Origin: Flavihumibacter soli
Lineage (GTDB): Bacteria; Bacteroidota; Bacteroidia; Sphingobacteriales; Sphingobacteriaceae
Assembly: GCF_010692725.1 (NCBI RefSeq)
Contig: NZ_JAAFZB010000095.1
Coordinates: forward strand, 620,001 to 684,000
DNA length: 64,000 bases
Direction: 5' to 3'
The position numbers were made by a program, and so were the translations under genes. This document shows, in pieces, positions 21,073 to 47,842 of this stretch. Below the pieces are notes generated by a model. The model did no database searches, had not been told where the DNA came from, and worked only from the letters and a program-made list of their open reading frames with translations. Numbering within the stretch: the stretch's first letter is position 1; the number at the start of each line of letters is the position of its first letter.

Positions 21073-21144
21073 GGCCTCGTAGTTCAACGGATAGAATAGG
21101 CGTTTCCTAAACTCTAGATATGGGTTCGATTCCCGTCGAGGCTA
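21073..21144 (+). tRNA. tRNA-Arg (anticodon CCT)
   Basis: The 72-nt sequence folds as a cloverleaf: acceptor GGCCTCG/CGAGGCT with a G-U first pair, D arm GTTC/GAAT, anticodon loop TTCCTAA with anticodon CCT (21106-21108), a 4-nt variable loop and T arm ATGGG-TTCGATT-CCCGT. The discriminator is A and CCA is not encoded. The anticodon stem GGCGT/ACTCT contains a C-U mismatch (21101 against 21113). It follows metG by 6 nt and has its own terminator. Confidence 0.93.
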
Positions 21145-21146
21145 CT

Positions 21147-39811: not shown

Positions 39812-41614
39812 ATGAAAAAGCTTATTGTTATTAGCCTTCTATTTGTCCTGTTTTCGTCGTTTAACACAAAAAAGCCGCAAAGTTCCTGGATAAGAATTAA
39901 CCAGCTGGGCTACTCTGTCAAAGGTCAGAAGGTGGCTGTGTGGGCCTCGAAGTCTGGTGAGCGCATCAAAACCTTCCGGATTGTGGATTCCGCTACTAAC
40001 AAAACGGTATATAAGGAGAAAGCGGGCCGGGCTTACGGGGAATACGGTCCTTTCAAAGAAACCTATCGCTTAAACTTCACGGCATTGACGTCCCCGGGAA
40101 CTTATTATGTTGAATCAGAAAACGTTAGGTCTCCATATTTTAAAATATCAGGCACTGTTTATTCGGGTCTGGCAGATTTTGCTCTGCGTTACATGCGTCA
40201 GCAACGCAGCGGATTTAATCCATATCTGAAGGATTCCTGCCATACAAATGATGGCTATACGATGTACGGGCCAATGCCTGACAGTACAATCATTGATGTC
40301 TCCGGCGGCTGGCATGATGCCTCAGACTATCTGCAGTACTCTACCACTTCAGCTAACGCTACCTACCACCTGCTTGCGGCCTATCGCGATTTTCCTGCAG
40401 TGTTCGGTGATCAGCACCTGGCCAATGGCCTTAACGGCAGCAATGGCACCGCTGATGTGCTGGACGAAGCAAAATGGGGTCTGGAGTGGCTTCTTAAAAT
40501 GCATCCGAAAGAAGACTGGCTCTTCAATCAGCTTGCCGATGACCGTGACCACATGAGCTTCAGGTTACCTACCGACGATTTGGTAGATTACGGGATGGGC
40601 AAAGGAAAGGCGCGTCCGGTTTACTTCGCAAGCGGAAAGCCGCAAGGGTTAAAGAAGCATAAGAACAGGGCCACGGGAGTTGCTTCTATCGCCGGAAAGT
40701 TTGCCAGCGCATTCGCACTGGCTTCTCAGATATACAATAAACAAGATAATGATCTGGCCGGGGTATTCAGGCAGAAGGCACTGTCCGCGTATAAGCTAGG
40801 CCTTAATAAACCCGGTGTAAGTCAGACAGCGCCACATGGTGCGCCATATTTTTATGAGGAAGATAACTGGGTTGACGATATGGAGCTCGGATCTGCGGCT
40901 TTGTATCAGCTGACCGGTCAAAGCGAATACTATCAAAAGGCTTATGATTTTGGTAAACAGGAGACCGTAACGCCATGGATGGGAGCTGATACCGCCCGCC
41001 ATTATCAATGGTATCCGTTTCATAATTTCGGGCATTACGAGCTAGCGAAGAGATCAGAGGGGCAGCAGCGCGAGCAGCTGATCGCCTATTACCGTGAAGG
41101 AATAGAGCGGGTCTGGAAGAAGTCGCAGAACAACGGCTTTTACCGGGGAGTTCCGTTTATCTGGTGTTCTAACAACCTGACCACTTCTTTCGCGATACAA
41201 TGTTTCCTCTACCGCGAGCTGAGTGGGGACAATACTTATATCGAACTGGAACAAGCCAGTTTTGATTGGCTTTTCGGCGTTAATCCATGGGGTACCAGTA
41301 TGGTATATGGTATGCCTGCTCATGGTGATACGCCCGCAGATCCACATTCTGCACTCACCGCAAAATACAAATACCCGGTTGATGGCGGCCTGATAGATGG
41401 TCCGGTATATGGAAGCATTTACAATAATCTGATCGGGATAACCTTATATCAGCCGGATGAATATGCTCAATTCCAGTCTAAGTTAGTTGTCTATCATGAT
41501 GATTACGGCGACTATAGTACGAATGAACCGACCATGGATGGCACGGCATCGCTTATCTATCTATTAGCCGCCAAGGAAAAGGAATCCCGGGAGGTGGCAC
41601 GGCCAAAAAAGTAG
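39812..41614 (+). CDS. Glycoside hydrolase family 9 enzyme (possibly extended by -1 frameshift)
   Basis: 600 aa in frame. Signal peptide MKKLIVISLLFVLFSSFN; N-terminal Ig-like cellulase domain at about 25-115 (IRINQLGYSVKGQKVAVW); GH9 catalytic domain at about 120-590 with candidate catalytic aspartates Asp169 and Asp172 in GGWHDASDYLQY and proton-donor Glu572 in DYGDYSTNEPTMDG. GH9 enzymes cut beta-1,4-glucans and related chains such as chito-oligosaccharides; the neighbouring deacetylases favour an amino-sugar polymer, by inference. The frame ends KK-stop on the sequence CCA AAA AAG TAG, where a -1 slip enters a polysaccharide-deacetylase frame (see separate entries). First gene of a five- or six-gene operon. 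Confidence 0.92.
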   Translation: MKKLIVISLLFVLFSSFNTKKPQSSWIRINQLGYSVKGQKVAVWASKSGERIKTFRIVDSATNKTVYKEKAGRAYGEYGPFKETYRLNFTALTSPGTYYVESENVRSPYFKISGTVYSGLADFALRYMRQQRSGFNPYLKDSCHTNDGYTMYGPMPDSTIIDVSGGWHDASDYLQYSTTSANATYHLLAAYRDFPAVFGDQHLANGLNGSNGTADVLDEAKWGLEWLLKMHPKEDWLFNQLADDRDHMSFRLPTDDLVDYGMGKGKARPVYFASGKPQGLKKHKNRATGVASIAGKFASAFALASQIYNKQDNDLAGVFRQKALSAYKLGLNKPGVSQTAPHGAPYFYEEDNWVDDMELGSAALYQLTGQSEYYQKAYDFGKQETVTPWMGADTARHYQWYPFHNFGHYELAKRSEGQQREQLIAYYREGIERVWKKSQNNGFYRGVPFIWCSNNLTTSFAIQCFLYRELSGDNTYIELEQASFDWLFGVNPWGTSMVYGMPAHGDTPADPHSALTAKYKYPVDGGLIDGPVYGSIYNNLIGITLYQPDEYAQFQSKLVVYHDDYGDYSTNEPTMDGTASLIYLLAAKEKESREVARPKK

Positions 41615-41646
41615 TTACCGATAGATTCGGCGCGATCATACGCGGT
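41589..41646 (+). promoter_or_regulatory. Candidate programmed -1 ribosomal frameshift signal
   Basis: SD-like GGGAGGTGG at 41589-41597, slippery heptamer A AAA AAG at 41605-41611 in the zero-frame phase of the GH9 gene, stop TAG at 41612-41614, then two short adjacent hairpins (CCGA/TCGG at 41618-41630, CGCG/CGCG at 41631-41644), with an alternative ACCG/CGGT closing stem at 41617-41646. The 10-nt SD spacing and 6-nt hairpin spacing match the E. coli dnaX arrangement. The stems are only four bp each. Confidence 0.6.
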
Positions 41647-42315
41647 GATACTTCGCTAAAGAAGATAGCGCTTGTCTTTACAGGCGATGAGTTTGCAGAT
41701 GGCGGCAATCATATCCGCAAGACTTTGAAGGAAGCCAGGATCAAGGCCTCTTTCTTTTTCACGGGCAGATTTTATGCGCAACCAACATTCGGGTCGCTGA
41801 TCTCTGATCTGAAAAATGACGGCCATTACCTCGGAGCGCATTCCGACCAGCATCTCCTGTATTGTGACTGGACGAAGCGTGATAGCACCCTCGTCACCCG
41901 GAAGCAGTTCAGCGACGACGTGCGAAACAACTACGGGCGAATGGCGAAGTTCGGTGTCACAGCAAAATCTGCTCCCTACTTTTTGCCACCCTATGAATGG
42001 TATAATTCGACAATAGCCGATTGGACTTCCGCGGAAGGCCTTCAACTGGTTAATTTTTCTCCCGGCACACGCTCAACAGCTGATTACACCTGGCCCGAGA
42101 TGGGCAAGAACTACCGAAGCTCCGACGAGATATATAGGTCGATCATGAGCCTGGAGGAACGCGATCTGAATGGGCTGAATGGATTTATATTGCTTGTCCA
42201 TGTAGGCACGGACCCGCGACGGACAGACAAGTTTTATTTTCGATTGAAGGAGTTACTCGCAGAACTTTCAAACAAAGGTTATCGCTTTGAAAGAATTGAT
42301 GATTTATTGAACTAA
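41611..42315 (+). CDS. Polysaccharide deacetylase (NodB) domain, reached by -1 frameshift from GH9
   Basis: The frame is open from 41527 to 42315 with no ATG, GTG or TTG before a TTG at 41725. The NodB metal site needs both TGDE (ALVFTGDEFAD, 41680-41691, equivalent to TFDD) and HSDQH (41839-41853). The TTG start would drop the first motif, so translation most likely enters by -1 slippage at 41605-41611, giving about 234 residues after the GH9 part (total about 834 aa). NodB enzymes remove N- or O-acetyl groups from chitin-, xylan- or peptidoglycan-type chains. Alternatives are a real inactivating indel, a homopolymer sequencing error, or a shortened protein from TTG. Confidence 0.75.
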   Translation, partial: VVTDRFGAIIRGDTSLKKIALVFTGDEFADGGNHIRKTLKEARIKASFFFTGRFYAQPTFGSLISDLKNDGHYLGAHSDQHLLYCDWTKRDSTLVTRKQFSDDVRNNYGRMAKFGVTAKSAPYFLPPYEWYNSTIADWTSAEGLQLVNFSPGTRSTADYTWPEMGKNYRSSDEIYRSIMSLEERDLNGLNGFILLVHVGTDPRRTDKFYFRLKELLAELSNKGYRFERIDDLLN

Positions 42316-42399: not shown

Positions 42400-44856
42400 A
42401 TGAACATTCGTAATCTTCTTTTTGGCTTTATACTTGCCCTTCCGGTATCCCTACATGCACAATACAGTCCCCAACCCAGTTCTTCGGAAATCAAACTGGC
42501 CCTGCAAAAGTTAAATACCGTTGGAAGCGTGTTATATATGGCCGCTCATCCGGATGACGAAAATACCAGACTCCTGTCGTACCTGGCGAAGGAGCGGAAG
42601 CTTCGTACCGGCTACCTTTCACTGACAAGGGGAGACGGTGGGCAGAATCTCATCGGTACAGAGCAGGGAGAATTGCTGGGGCTGATAAGAACCCAGGAAT
42701 TGCTCGCCGCAAGAAGAACTGACGGCGCGGAACAATTTTTCTCACGGGCTATAGATTTCGGATACTCTAAAACTTCTGAAGAGACTTTCCGGATCTGGGG
42801 TAAGGAGCAGATCCTTGCAGATGCGGTTTGGGTTATCCGAAACTTTCGACCGGATGTTATCATCACCCGTTTTCCTGAAGACAGCCGGGCGGGACATGGT
42901 CAGCATGCTGCTTCGGCCATAATTGCCCGTGAAGCCTTTGCTGCTGCTGCAGACCCCCGACGTTTCCCGGATCAGTTAAAATTCGTGCAACCCTGGCAGG
43001 CAAAAAGACTCGTGTGGAACAACTATAATTTCGGAGGAACCAATACCACTTCGGATGATCAGCTTAAAATAAATGTAGGCGTCTTTAATCCCCTGCTCGG
43101 TAAGGGATATGGTGAGATAGCCGCCGAGAGCAGAACAAACCATAAGAGTCAGGGATTTGGCAGTGCACGTCAACGCGGGCAATCAGTTGAATACTTTACA
43201 ACGGTTGCCGGCGAGCCGGCAATAAATGATTTATTTGAAGGAATTGATCAGAGTTGGAATCGTGTTAAAGGCAGTGTAGGGCTGGCAAAATTAATCAGGC
43301 AGGCAGACACAAACTTTCAGATGGATAAACCATCGGGCTCTGTGCCGCTTTTAATAAACGTATTAAAGGAATTAAAGAAGCTGCAGGATCCTTATTGGAA
43401 GGCTCAAAAGGAAAAGGAAACCACTGATTTAATAGCTGCCGCCGCGGGATTGTGGTTTGAGGCTGGTGCCGCGGCTCCTGTGCAAGCTATTCATCAAACG
43501 GTTGCAGTGACGGCTCAGGCCATACTTAATAGTGATCTGAAGGTTAGTTTTGCAGCGGGACAGGCCGCAGGCCAGAATTCTGATTTTAAGGTCTTAGAGA
43601 AGGGTGTTCTGGTTTCAGAGAGCGACAGTCTCAAAGCCCTGAAGTTATCGCAGCCTTACTGGCTGAATAAGAAAAGCAGCATAGGCAACTATGCAATTGC
43701 CGATCAGCAGTTGGTCGGCTTCCCGGAAGATCCGGATAAGCTGAGTGTCTGGTTTAATTTCATGATCGAAGGGTATCCGGTTTCGTTCCGGCGGCCTGTG
43801 ATATTCAAATCTACGGACCAGGTACGCGGTGAGGTTTACCAGCCGCTGGTAATTGCCCCTCCCGTTACGGCGACCATCACTGAAAACGCATATGTGTTTA
43901 ATGAAAATACTCCCCGGAGTATCCAGGTTCAGCTTAAAAGTTTCCGGGATAACGCTAGCGGAGCGTTGGAACCTCAGGTACCGGCGGGGTGGAAGATCAG
44001 TCCGGCAAGGATAGATTTTAATCTCATTAAAAAGGGAGATGAACGTGCCGTGAGTTTTACTCTGACACCTGGTGGAAATGTAAACAGCGGTCATATAGCC
44101 ATGCATATTAAGCTGGATGGACAGACATTTGACCGCGGATTGAAAGTCGTCTCTTATGATCATATTCCGCTGCAGACCCTATTCCCCCTGTCAGAATCAA
44201 GGGTTGAAAGGCTGAAAGTGATAACAGACGGTAAGAAGATCGGGTACCTGGCCGGTGCCGGTGACATGATCCCGGAATCTTTAACGCAACTGGGTTATGA
44301 GGTTACCATTATCAATGAGAACCAGATACTAAATGGCGATCTATCTAAATATGATGCGATCATTGCCGGGATCAGGGCCTACAATGTGAATAGTCGCCTT
44401 CGGTATATTCAGCCGAAGCTCATGGAGTACGTAGAAAACGGCGGTACTTATCTCGTTCAGTACAATGTGAGCAACCCGCTGGTTATGGAAGATATAGGTC
44501 CATATCCGTTTAAAATTTCCCGCGACAGGGTAACAGAGGAAGACGCAAATGTTTCCGTATTAGCCGCAGACAACCCTGTATTAAACTACCCGAACAAGAT
44601 TACTGCCGACGACTTTCAGGGCTGGGTGCAGGAACGCGGAATTTACTTCCTGTCTGATATGGATAAGAAGTACACCCCCCTTCTTGCTATGAGCGATAAG
44701 AATGAAAAACAAAGCAACGGTTCCCTTATAGTTACAGATTACGGGAAAGGTCGCTTTATCTACACATCATTAGTTTTTTTCAGGCAATTGCCGGCGGGTG
44801 TACCGGGCGCATACAGATTATTTGTAAATTTGATCGCTAACAAGAACAATAAATAA
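42400..44856 (+). CDS. PIG-L/LmbE-family deacetylase, multidomain
   Basis: 818 aa. Signal peptide MNIRNLLFGFILALPVSLHA/Q. Catalytic domain about 25-330: AAHPDDEN (His50, Asp52-Asp53-Glu54) and RAGHGQHAAS (metal His pair), the zinc site of GlcNAc deacetylases. About 480-600 is an Ig-like NEW3-type domain; about 610-815 resembles a class I glutamine-amidotransferase/ThuA-type flavodoxin fold (KYDAIIAGIRAYN, YVENGGTYLVQYN). PIG-L enzymes deacetylate N-acetylglucosamine-containing substrates; here the protein is periplasmic or surface exposed. Same operon as GH9 and the symporter, 84 nt after the deacetylase stop. Confidence 0.92.
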   Translation: MNIRNLLFGFILALPVSLHAQYSPQPSSSEIKLALQKLNTVGSVLYMAAHPDDENTRLLSYLAKERKLRTGYLSLTRGDGGQNLIGTEQGELLGLIRTQELLAARRTDGAEQFFSRAIDFGYSKTSEETFRIWGKEQILADAVWVIRNFRPDVIITRFPEDSRAGHGQHAASAIIAREAFAAAADPRRFPDQLKFVQPWQAKRLVWNNYNFGGTNTTSDDQLKINVGVFNPLLGKGYGEIAAESRTNHKSQGFGSARQRGQSVEYFTTVAGEPAINDLFEGIDQSWNRVKGSVGLAKLIRQADTNFQMDKPSGSVPLLINVLKELKKLQDPYWKAQKEKETTDLIAAAAGLWFEAGAAAPVQAIHQTVAVTAQAILNSDLKVSFAAGQAAGQNSDFKVLEKGVLVSESDSLKALKLSQPYWLNKKSSIGNYAIADQQLVGFPEDPDKLSVWFNFMIEGYPVSFRRPVIFKSTDQVRGEVYQPLVIAPPVTATITENAYVFNENTPRSIQVQLKSFRDNASGALEPQVPAGWKISPARIDFNLIKKGDERAVSFTLTPGGNVNSGHIAMHIKLDGQTFDRGLKVVSYDHIPLQTLFPLSESRVERLKVITDGKKIGYLAGAGDMIPESLTQLGYEVTIINENQILNGDLSKYDAIIAGIRAYNVNSRLRYIQPKLMEYVENGGTYLVQYNVSNPLVMEDIGPYPFKISRDRVTEEDANVSVLAADNPVLNYPNKITADDFQGWVQERGIYFLSDMDKKYTPLLAMSDKNEKQSNGSLIVTDYGKGRFIYTSLVFFRQLPAGVPGAYRLFVNLIANKNNK

Positions 44857-45105: not shown

Positions 45106-45217
45106 TCCGGAACTCCCTCCTTTTATTAAAAGCTGGAACCAGTTCTACTCCCTCCTGGTAGTATGGCTGGTTCTGCTGATTATACTTTTTTATTTGTTCA
45201 CCAAGACATTTGAATGA
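45095..45217 (+). CDS. Single-helix membrane microprotein, 40 aa
   Basis: GTG at 45095 opens a 40-residue frame: VKFDPELPPFIKSWNQFYSL, then a hydrophobic helix LVVWLVLLIILFYLFTKTFE. The 11-nt overlap with the preceding 60-aa gene and the ATGA overlap with the symporter start strongly suggest it is translated. No named family is recognised. Short single-helix proteins directly upstream of sodium:solute symporters are plausible accessory subunits, but this is inference. Confidence 0.75.
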   Translation: MKFDPELPPFIKSWNQFYSLLVVWLVLLIILFYLFTKTFE

Positions 45218-46905
45218 GTGTAACCGACTGGATCGTCTTAATAGTTACCCTGCTGGCAATTGTGGCCTATGGCATTTATAAAAGCCGCGGAACACATAAT
45301 ATTGACGGTTTTTTCCTGGGCAATCAGTCCCTACCCTGGTATCATGTCACCCTATCGGTGATGGCTACCCAAGCCAGCGCTATCACTTTCCTGTCTGCTC
45401 CCGGCCTGGCTTATTCTAAAGGAATGAGCTTCGTTCAGTTCTATTTCGGACTTCCATTGGCAATGATTGTCCTTTGTATCACCTTCGTTCCAATCTTTCA
45501 CCGGCTCAAGGTTTACACAGCTTACGAATTCCTGGAGAAGCGCTTTGATATGAAAACGCGCGCCTTAACTGCCTTTCTGTTCCTGGTTCAGCGTGGATTG
45601 TCTACCGGTATCACGATATATGCGCCTTCGATCATACTCTCAACCATACTGAATATTGATACAACCTATACCACCCTGTTCATCGGGGGATTGGTGATAG
45701 TCTATACAGTTTACGGCGGCACCCGGGCCGTCTCCTATACCCAGCTATTACAGATGAGTATTATCTTTTCCGGGCTGTTTATCGCAGGTGTAATGGTCGT
45801 TCGAATGCTCCCAGGAGATATCGGGTTCAGCGATGCGCTCCAGATTGCCGGTAAAATGGGGAGGACTAACGCGATCGACTGGTCTTTTGACTGGAACAAT
45901 CAATATACTGTGTGGAGCGGCCTGATAGGCGGTTTCTTTCTGCAGCTGTCATACTTTGGTACCGATCAGAGTCAGGTGGGACGTTATCTCACGGGTGCCT
46001 CGGTAGGCCAAAGCCGGCTCGGCCTCTTAATGAACGGTCTGGTGAAGATACCCATGCAGTTCCTGATCCTGCTCATCGGGGTTCTTGTTTTCGCTTTCTA
46101 CCAGTTCAATCAGCCGCCAATCTTCTTCAACAGCTACGAATTAAACAAGATAGAGAAGAGTGAATACAACGCCGAACTAAACAGGATAAAAGCTGATTAT
46201 GGCCGGGCATTCAATGAAAAACAAGCGCAGGTAAAAGAGTTGAATACTGCCATAGAAGCCGACGATGAGAAAGCAATAAATCAGCACCGGACCGTTCTCC
46301 AGACTGCGGACGAGAAGACAAAGGCAATCCGGCAGGAGGCAGTAGACCTGATGCTGAAAAATGATCCGGATGCAGATACCAACGATAACAATTATATCTT
46401 TCTAAGTTTTGTTACCCGCTACCTGCCGCAAGGCCTAATAGGCTTGCTGATAGCGATCATTTTCCTTGCATCAATGGGCTCAACCGCCAGCGCTCTGAAT
46501 TCTCTTACATCAACCACTGTAATAGACATTTACAAAAGGTTTATGAATAAGGATGGAACGGATAACAAATACCTGTCAGTTTCACGATGGACGACTATAG
46601 GCTGGGGCCTATTCTGTATACTAATGGCTTTATACGCCAGCAAGATGGGGAACCTGATTGAGGCTGTGAATATCCTGGGCTCTCTATTTTATGGTACTAT
46701 ACTCGGCATATTCGTTGTGGCCTTTTATTTCAAAAAAATTGGCGGCTCAGCGACTTTTAAAGCAGCACTGATAACCGAAGTTATTGTATTCACATTCTGG
46801 ATTACGGATGTGATGGCCTTTCTTTGGCTGAACATTGCCGGCTGCGTGATCCTGGTTGTTATTGCATGGCTGTTTGAAATGATATCTCCTGAAAAACCGC
46901 TATAG
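45214..46905 (+). CDS. Sodium:solute symporter (SSS family)
   Basis: 563 aa, about thirteen helices. N-terminal helix MSVTDWIVLIVTLLAIVAYG, then GFFLGNQSLPWYHVTLSVMA and TQASAITFLSAPGLAYSKGM, the SSS sodium/substrate core, and LLQMSIIFSGLFIAGV. Residues about 305-390 form a charged, coiled-coil-like insert (EKSEYNAELNRIKADYGRAF onward) before EEN-type NDNNYIFLSFVTRYLPQGL. Such inserts occur in Bacteroidota SSS proteins. It imports a solute with sodium, here presumably a product of the GH9/deacetylase steps. ATGA overlap with the 40-aa gene; terminator 30 nt downstream. Confidence 0.93.
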   Translation: MSVTDWIVLIVTLLAIVAYGIYKSRGTHNIDGFFLGNQSLPWYHVTLSVMATQASAITFLSAPGLAYSKGMSFVQFYFGLPLAMIVLCITFVPIFHRLKVYTAYEFLEKRFDMKTRALTAFLFLVQRGLSTGITIYAPSIILSTILNIDTTYTTLFIGGLVIVYTVYGGTRAVSYTQLLQMSIIFSGLFIAGVMVVRMLPGDIGFSDALQIAGKMGRTNAIDWSFDWNNQYTVWSGLIGGFFLQLSYFGTDQSQVGRYLTGASVGQSRLGLLMNGLVKIPMQFLILLIGVLVFAFYQFNQPPIFFNSYELNKIEKSEYNAELNRIKADYGRAFNEKQAQVKELNTAIEADDEKAINQHRTVLQTADEKTKAIRQEAVDLMLKNDPDADTNDNNYIFLSFVTRYLPQGLIGLLIAIIFLASMGSTASALNSLTSTTVIDIYKRFMNKDGTDNKYLSVSRWTTIGWGLFCILMALYASKMGNLIEAVNILGSLFYGTILGIFVVAFYFKKIGGSATFKAALITEVIVFTFWITDVMAFLWLNIAGCVILVVIAWLFEMISPEKPL

Positions 46906-46984: not shown

Positions 46985-47842
46985 TTATTTTTTTGCTTCC
47001 GCGATCAGTTTCTCATTTAAAGCTACATAGTCAGGATTGTTCTGCGTTTTTGCATTACCCATCGAACTTGTTGCTGAGGAAATCGCACCTTTCTTGTCAC
47101 CCATCTTTAACTGGATCTTTGCTTTCAGGTGTTCCACCCAGTATTTGTCAGGACTTTGTTCAACTGCTTTGCTTGCCCATTGAAAGGCTTGTTTCAGGTC
47201 TTTGCCGCTTTCGTAATAGTAAGAAGCTGCTTCATAGTATGGCTTCCTGTCTGTAGGTGCCATAGCAGTTTCTATTTGTTTCATGATGCGGGAATCAACA
47301 TCTGTATTCACGGTAAAGCCCACGGCGGTGTTCTCCCAAACCAATTGTACTTCCAGCGACTGGGAGGTAATATTGCCGAAAAGAATAGTAAACGTTTCTG
47401 TGCTGAACGGTAACGTTGATGGCTTGGCTTTAAACCGAACAAGATCGTCAGACTGTTTGTAGCCCATCGAACCCCAGAGAGCCGTATTTTTACTCAAAAT
47501 GAATGTCCATTCATCCTTACCCGGAATGCTGTAAAGGGCGTATTCACCTTTTGGTATTGCATTGCCTTCAATTTTAACATCTTCACCAAAGGTGATCTTG
47601 GTTGGCTGATTTGCACCTGTGCGCCATACCTGGTTGTTGTAAGGCACCAGGTCGCCCATAATCTTGCGACCTTTTACGCTGGGGCGGGAATAAGACACAG
47701 AGATTTCAGACAGCGCGAACTCCTGTTTGATTGTCTGCAGCGGACTTGCCGCAGGTAATTTGATGCCCTGGGCTTGCAGCGAATTGATTATTGCGGGAAC
47801 AATAAACAGGGCCAGCATAAAGGATAATAACTTACTTTTCAT
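46985..47842 (-). CDS. DUF2911-domain secreted protein
   Basis: 285 aa. Signal peptide MKSKLLSFMLALFIVPAIIN, cut after SLQA. DUF2911 occupies about 30-175 with its typical phrases: ISVSYSRPSVKGRKIMGDLV, VWRTGANQPTKITF, PKGEYALYSIPGKDEWTFIL and NTALWGS. The C-terminal 90 residues look like TPR-type helices (PYYEAASYYYESGKDLKQA, QWASKAVEQSPDKYWVEHL). Function is unknown; DUF2911 proteins are abundant periplasmic proteins in Bacteroidota. Monocistronic, with a terminator on the far side shared with the symporter gene. Confidence 0.9.
   Translation of the reverse strand: MKSKLLSFMLALFIVPAIINSLQAQGIKLPAASPLQTIKQEFALSEISVSYSRPSVKGRKIMGDLVPYNNQVWRTGANQPTKITFGEDVKIEGNAIPKGEYALYSIPGKDEWTFILSKNTALWGSMGYKQSDDLVRFKAKPSTLPFSTETFTILFGNITSQSLEVQLVWENTAVGFTVNTDVDSRIMKQIETAMAPTDRKPYYEAASYYYESGKDLKQAFQWASKAVEQSPDKYWVEHLKAKIQLKMGDKKGAISSATSSMGNAKTQNNPDYVALNEKLIAEAKK

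Follow-up and report, generated by a model that had tools for sequence, protein, structure and literature searches.

The window analyzed here is a 64,000 nt stretch of the Flavihumibacter soli genome (contig NZ_JAAFZB010000095.1, positions 620,001–684,000 of the forward strand). It contains a gene for a family 9 glycoside hydrolase (GH9) that ends at a run of adenines, and an overlapping -1 frame that encodes a polysaccharide deacetylase. The initial annotation read this junction as a programmed -1 frameshift that joins the two enzymes. The features of the locus are listed below, with positions in the window.

39812–41614, + strand: GH9 glycoside hydrolase in the zero frame, 600 amino acids (aa), ending in KK-stop (open reading frame (ORF), Pfam)
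41589–41594, + strand: internal Shine-Dalgarno (SD)-like element GGGAGG, ending 10 nt before the heptamer (sequence)
41605–41611, + strand: slippery heptamer A_AAA_AAG in the zero-frame phase X_XXY_YYZ (sequence, conservation)
41611–42315, + strand: -1 frame with a CE4/NodB-like polysaccharide deacetylase domain, 234 aa (ORF, Pfam, fold)
41612–41614, + strand: zero-frame stop TAG directly 3' of the heptamer (sequence)
41618–41644, + strand: predicted small 4-bp hairpins, the first 6 nt after the slip site (folding; not above shuffled sequences)
41680–41691, + strand: deacetylase motif 1, TGDE; a start at TTG 41725 would lose the motif (sequence, model)
41839–41853, + strand: deacetylase motif 2, HSDQH (sequence)

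The slip junction at 41605–41611 is confirmed. The GH9 frame closes with CCA AAA AAG TAG, where the A6 run occupies positions 41605–41610 and the G is at 41611, and the SD-like element lies at the spacing first proposed. The -1 frame continues with GTA from 41611. The zero-frame product has a hydrophobic N-terminal leader, followed by a CelD_N immunoglobulin-like domain and a Glyco_hydro_9 domain (238.6 bits against a Pfam cut-off of 27.7), which places it in GH9. Its best solved match is the endoglucanase 3x17, and the xyloglucanase BoGH9A (6dht) is lower in the list. The -1 frame, open to 42315, had been assigned to a NodB deacetylase, and its Polysacc_deac_1 match of 43.9 bits is well above the Pfam cut-off of 23.1. 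In NCBIfam, neither protein has a match that reaches a curated cut-off.

The model of the deacetylase domain has a mean predicted local distance difference test score (pLDDT) of 95 and displays a CE4 fold, with motif 1 at the end of strand 18–25. Residues D26, H77 and H81 are invariant in 30 aligned deacetylases and E27 is present in at least 90% of them; D26, H77 and H81 correspond to the metal-binding D and H-x3-H residues of the family. By domain, predicted fold and motif residues, the window deacetylase is a member of the CE4/NodB family. The fold is similar to those of the CE4 enzymes PdaA (1w17) and Bc1960 (4l1g), which are among the best solved matches (template modeling scores of 0.71–0.74 by query length), but the window domain is only 18–24% identical to them and is located C-terminal to a GH9 enzyme. 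The model of an in-frame fusion from a related locus (L064) is poor, with a mean pLDDT of 70, a predicted template modeling score of 0.62 and much of GH9 below 50, and was given no weight; it has a low-confidence linker near residues 603–613.

The first ATG, GTG or TTG in the -1 frame past the upstream stop is TTG 41725, which is beyond motif 1, and the ORF coordinates agree with the original description on this point. A start at this codon would drop TGDE and, in the predicted structure, strand 18–25 that carries it. A short deacetylase made from TTG 41725 would thus be without the first metal motif, and it would also be without a leader.

A total of 305 related loci were collected. One is without a deacetylase match, and the other 304 reduce to 276 distinct loci when those with identical first 400 bases are merged. 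These consist of 130 in-frame fusions, 100 loci split with the deacetylase in the -1 frame, 3 split in the +1 frame and 43 with no GH9 directly upstream of the deacetylase. The loci were sampled non-randomly, as best search matches plus extras fetched by hand, many picked for short deacetylase frames, and some matches were left unfetched; the ratio of split to fused loci (100 to 130) therefore does not represent a prevalence. Relatives thus include both in-frame fusions and splits at A_AAA_AAG, the comparison that had been proposed as a check. The flag "1 TAA" on many Pedobacter matches suggested stop readthrough, but the matches concerned are fused frames with their first stop only where the match runs out at its C-terminus, and this candidate was rejected. 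Two loci, L007 and L123, have a deacetylase that is 61% identical to that of the window in a 417-codon frame, with no GH9 found upstream.

The junction has an A-run of 6 or more in 96 of the 100 loci split in the -1 frame: 73 have A6–A8 and 23 have A9 or A10. In the A6–A8 group the heptamer A_AAA_AAG is in phase in 71 loci and the stop is one base past the run in 68. L078 has A_AAA_AAA, and L270 has no in-phase heptamer. Compared with the in-frame fusions, a run of at least six As at the junction is found in 96 of 99 split loci against 19 of 129, and GGAGG in 69 of 99 against 15 of 129. Locus L003, from the same genus as the window, and L074 from Daejeonella lutea have identical junctions. Splits without a conserved slippery site, named beforehand as evidence against a frameshift, are few. 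Four of the 100 loci have no run of 6 or more and a fifth, L270, has its A6 out of phase. Three of the four (L189, L266 and L267) have their own deacetylase start and hydrophobic leader, the deacetylase of L270 likewise has its own leader, and L009 is a broken copy. In L009 and L013 the deacetylase frame shifts in the middle of the gene, with two matches in different frames, while GH9 and the first part share a frame; this gene is either decaying or mis-sequenced.

Three types of junction can be distinguished. Type I, which includes the window junction, has an SD element at about 10 nt and A6G and is found in 64 loci. These represent the families Hymenobacteraceae, Sphingobacteriaceae and Fulvivirgaceae, with genera that include Pontibacter, Daejeonella, Arcticibacter, Pararcticibacter and Chryseolinea. 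All 64 have the heptamer 71 nt past a GH9 anchor. The type I linker is 95 or 92 nt; the lengths of 127 fused linkers take 25 values between 69 and 180 nt.

Type II consists of 8 loci, including Pedobacter and Chitinophagaceae, and is similar to dnaX in that an SD element at 13 nt (once 16 nt) and A6G are followed by a hairpin that starts 5 nt past the heptamer. In this hairpin 97.9% of cells are paired and two pairs are changed on both sides. The covariation score is matched by 8 of 500 shuffles, and the count of double changes by 53 of 500. When the hairpin is slid to other positions, at most 58.3% of cells are paired, and among 128 fused junctions the pattern is found in L064 only. Type II is at a different linker position and probably has a separate origin from type I.

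Type III consists of 23 loci with A9 or A10 runs. Codon phases 0, 1 and 2 are all present, the zero-frame stop is at varied distances from the run, and GGAGG is found in only 4 of the 23. Loci L263, L264 and L269 are intermediate between types I and III, having A9 with GGAGG 7–10 nt upstream and a stop 7–22 nt past the run. L145 and L147 have an A10 run followed by CGACCnTCGGGTCG, a short inverted repeat ahead of the zero-frame stop; their stops differ.

The distance from the end of GGAGG to the heptamer, among the 72 loci of the A6 class, is exactly 10 nt for 56, 13 nt for 7, 16 nt for 1 and 9 nt for 1; the remaining 7 have a degraded purine-rich form in its place. AAG is used as the second slippery codon by 71 of these 72 loci, as compared with 41% in the same genes (760 AAG and 1090 AAA among 1850 Lys codons). 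Within the SD window glutamate is encoded 97 times by GAG and 4 times by GAA, where the same genes have 580 GAG and 781 GAA overall. The heptamer is conserved beyond the needs of the protein, and the internal SD about 10 nt upstream represents a candidate stimulator. In the 4.44 Mb genome the pattern GGAGGN7-13AAAAAAGTA occurs once on the forward strand, at the window junction, and not on the reverse strand; the reversed control pattern has no forward and one reverse occurrence. Chance is no explanation for the window-type junction, since it recurs in dozens of other species.

The decoding components of the genome are compatible with such a site. Of the 38 tRNA genes found, a single one is for Lys, with anticodon UUU, as has been described for E. 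coli dnaX frameshifting (PMC5009743). The 16S 3' end, read directly from the sequence, is GGAATACCTCCTTTCT and contains ACCTCC, which leaves the core of the anti-SD intact. For the +1 shift of prfB, internal SDs are described as common in Bacteroidia, although the anti-SD is occluded (PMC8710568).

The ratio of nonsynonymous to synonymous substitution (dN/dS), from pairs with a synonymous difference of 0.03–0.55, has a median of 0.13 in the A6 class (126 pairs), 0.127 in the A9 loci (7 pairs) and 0.089 in the fusions (55 pairs). The -1 frame is thus under purifying selection at the protein level. Among the 95 slip loci, none has a start codon with a hydrophobic leader on the deacetylase. Both are present in each of the 7 split loci that lack a slip site and in each of 40 loci in which no GH9 lies upstream (3 of the 43 such loci, weak matches with E above 1e-20, were dropped). 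The leader was scored as a start codon with a 10-residue stretch of mean Kyte-Doolittle value of at least 1.8, and not with a signal-peptide predictor. With the leader absent in slip loci and present in the others, fusion to GH9 is the only evident export route for the domain.

The downstream structure of type I is a different matter. The 4-bp stems noted at first are indeed predicted 6 nt after the heptamer, but this fold is at chance level (z of -0.94, with 32 of 200 shuffles folding as well or better) and is not conserved within the type. The proposed likeness to dnaX thus holds for the heptamer and the 10-nt SD and not for the hairpin. Downstream windows of the A6 class show a weak excess of structure, with a mean z of -0.69 to -1.02, where control windows have -0.20 to 0.17. 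A downstream hairpin is not a clear part of type I. This element is present in dnaX and was treated as non-obligatory for membership in the class.

Taken together, the window junction is a genuine conserved recoding site, where a programmed -1 ribosomal frameshift like that of dnaX very probably takes place, and the conservation of its elements supports the initial interpretation. In the proposed mechanism, translation would mostly terminate at TAG 41612 and yield the GH9 enzyme alone. On A_AAA_AAG the Lys-tRNAs would slip back one base and some ribosomes would enter the -1 frame, probably because the 16S anti-SD pairs with the GGGAGG element 10 nt before the heptamer and assists the slip. Reading in the -1 frame would then produce an exported GH9-deacetylase fusion. 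One gene would probably make both the short and the long enzyme. We infer that ribosomal slippage may be frequent enough to be useful and may be stimulated by GGAGG, that the short form may be commoner than the fusion, and that both products may be used. Most simply, the shift would serve to equip part of the exported GH9 with a deacetylase.

Several observations weigh against this interpretation. The loci are related, so the counts exceed the number of independent tests. The dN/dS of the A6-class deacetylase is higher than that of the GH9 part (0.033, 118 pairs). No shared downstream structure is found in 17 aligned type I sequences (consensus -1.55 kcal/mol, covariation term 0.02). Downstream of the A6-class sites the fold is more stable than in the fused homologues (p 1.8e-7), a difference that is lost when stability is taken relative to shuffled sequences (p 0.15). 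Finally, the anti-SD is reported to be masked on the ribosomes of Bacteroidota (PMC8710568).

Transcriptional slippage, in which RNA polymerase adds an A and ordinary translation then produces the fusion, is the strongest alternative but as a programmed mechanism for this junction is unlikely. It is plausible for the A9–A10 runs of type III. Bacterial slippage on 9 As is documented (PMC5009743), one extra A gives the -1 direction in which all 23 loci are split, and this type has a varied phase, a varied stop distance and few GGAGG elements. Ribosomes can likewise slip on long A-runs whatever the phase, however, and type III is compatible with either process. At the window, transcriptional slippage is improbable. 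Transcriptional realignment calls for a homopolymer of about 8–9 or more in free phase; the window run is A6 and the phase is fixed in type I. The single heptamer offset in all 64 type I loci, the fixed G and the fixed GGAGG spacing also argue against it. Such constancy of phase, final G and spacing should matter to the ribosome and not to the polymerase. GGAGG accompanies the short runs (65 of 73 loci against 4 of 23; Fisher p 2.3e-10, uncorrected for relatedness).

Reinitiation or internal initiation, with GGAGG serving the start codon of a separate deacetylase, is very unlikely. The position of GGAGG just 5' of the stop does resemble a coupled junction, TTG 41725 exists, and a start codon is present before motif 1 in 45 of 72 A6-class and 14 of 23 A9 loci, which favors this explanation. 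An ATG, GTG or TTG also precedes the GAIIRGD motif in 13 of 95 slip loci. Against this explanation, 63 of the 72 A6-class loci have none ahead of GAIIRGD, and those that remain share no single position. Reinitiation is also at odds with the distribution of leaders described above, and it leaves the fixed A_AAA_AAG unexplained.

An artifact of sequencing or assembly, or a pseudogene in decay, is less credible still: A6 runs are error-prone, as the initial annotation cautioned, and near relatives may be one A apart (L146 with A10 and L278 with A11; L060 with A6 and L064 with A7), but the same A6G split is found in dozens of species, several with one-contig genomes, the dN/dS is 0.13, phase and codon choice at the site are fixed, and the presence of an A-run at 96 of 100 distinct -1 splits makes sequencing error very unlikely.

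Returning to the ribosomal frameshift, its history can be followed in gene trees. The larger tree has 230 of the 233 loci that carry GH9; L009 and L226 (short pieces) and one with no stop in the locus were excluded. State changes were counted on 223 of the 230 rows, with seven "other" rows uncounted. Frameshift and fused states change at least 22 times, where shuffled states give a mean of 72.3 and a least value of 63. A 69-row mixture-model tree has 16 changes; type I alone has 8, of which 6 are forced by well-supported branches. L146, which is split, and L278, which is fused, are sisters in both trees. L060 is near L064 or L105 in the larger tree; these two are A7 and fused and keep the SD, and L064 also keeps the hairpin. 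Close relatives thus switch between split and fused states by single As. The constancy of the type I position points to a shared ancestor and repeated loss, or to transfer; gene trees do not separate gain from loss or transfer. It is quite possible, although we propose it tentatively, that recoding determines how much of the GH9 bears a deacetylase and that evolution has tuned this share in Bacteroidota, through repeated switching between fused and recoded states with at least three cassettes, often by one inserted A.

Other genes of the window were also compared. On the 3' side of the locus are a PIG-L family deacetylase (818 aa, 42400–44856) and a sodium:solute symporter (45214–46905). Neither has a match across 77 long related loci (E of 1e-20), and no operon-based function is claimed for this reason. 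A minus-strand ORF of 285 aa is located at 46985–47842; relatives of it (34–36% identity in the first six) are downstream of the deacetylase in 25 of the 77 long loci, comprising 20 in-frame fusions and 5 of the A6 class. The sole tRNA gene in the window by ARAGORN is a tRNA-Arg (CCT) at 21073–21145.

The closest known system is E. coli dnaX, which has the same A_AAA_AAG, the 10-nt SD spacing of type I and a sole tRNA-Lys (PMC5009743, PMC3711429). Its hairpin has a counterpart 5 nt downstream in type II, and type I is without a conserved hairpin. The outcome differs from that in E. coli: here the shift gives the long form, the zero frame stops at once and the product is an exported carbohydrate enzyme. 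Two-ORF dnaX genes of Chlorobium, Chloroherpeton and others, with A7–A10 runs, likewise give a short zero-frame and a long shifted product, and are discussed as ribosomal or polymerase slippage depending on the species (PMC3711429, PMC5009743). They differ in gene and phylum, and the present family has three junction types alongside in-frame fusions. The prfB site of Bacteroidia similarly keeps an internal SD despite the reported anti-SD occlusion (PMC8710568). It is an autoregulatory +1 shift at CUU UGA with no heptamer and no domain fusion, unlike the GH9-deacetylase site. An archaeal alpha-L-fucosidase is also a glycoside hydrolase made by a -1 frameshift; there the shift produces one functional enzyme, and here a second catalytic domain would be added (PMC8037382). 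Searches of an open-access library without supplements listed no earlier report of a frameshift in a GH9/deacetylase gene.

Bacterial programmed frameshifts have been described mainly in mobile elements and in a few housekeeping genes (PMC3711429). A frameshift in a carbohydrate enzyme across several Bacteroidota families, with fused relatives as natural controls, would make it testable why a domain is dosed by recoding. Gene finders that read single frames would divide such genes and miss the fused product. The GGAGG conserved at a distance of 10 nt may provide a native case for how a largely occluded anti-SD acts in elongation. If the share of GH9 with a deacetylase is indeed set and tuned by recoding, elongating ribosomes of Bacteroidota would read an internal SD for -1 as well as +1 shifts, even though initiation in these organisms largely ignores the SD.

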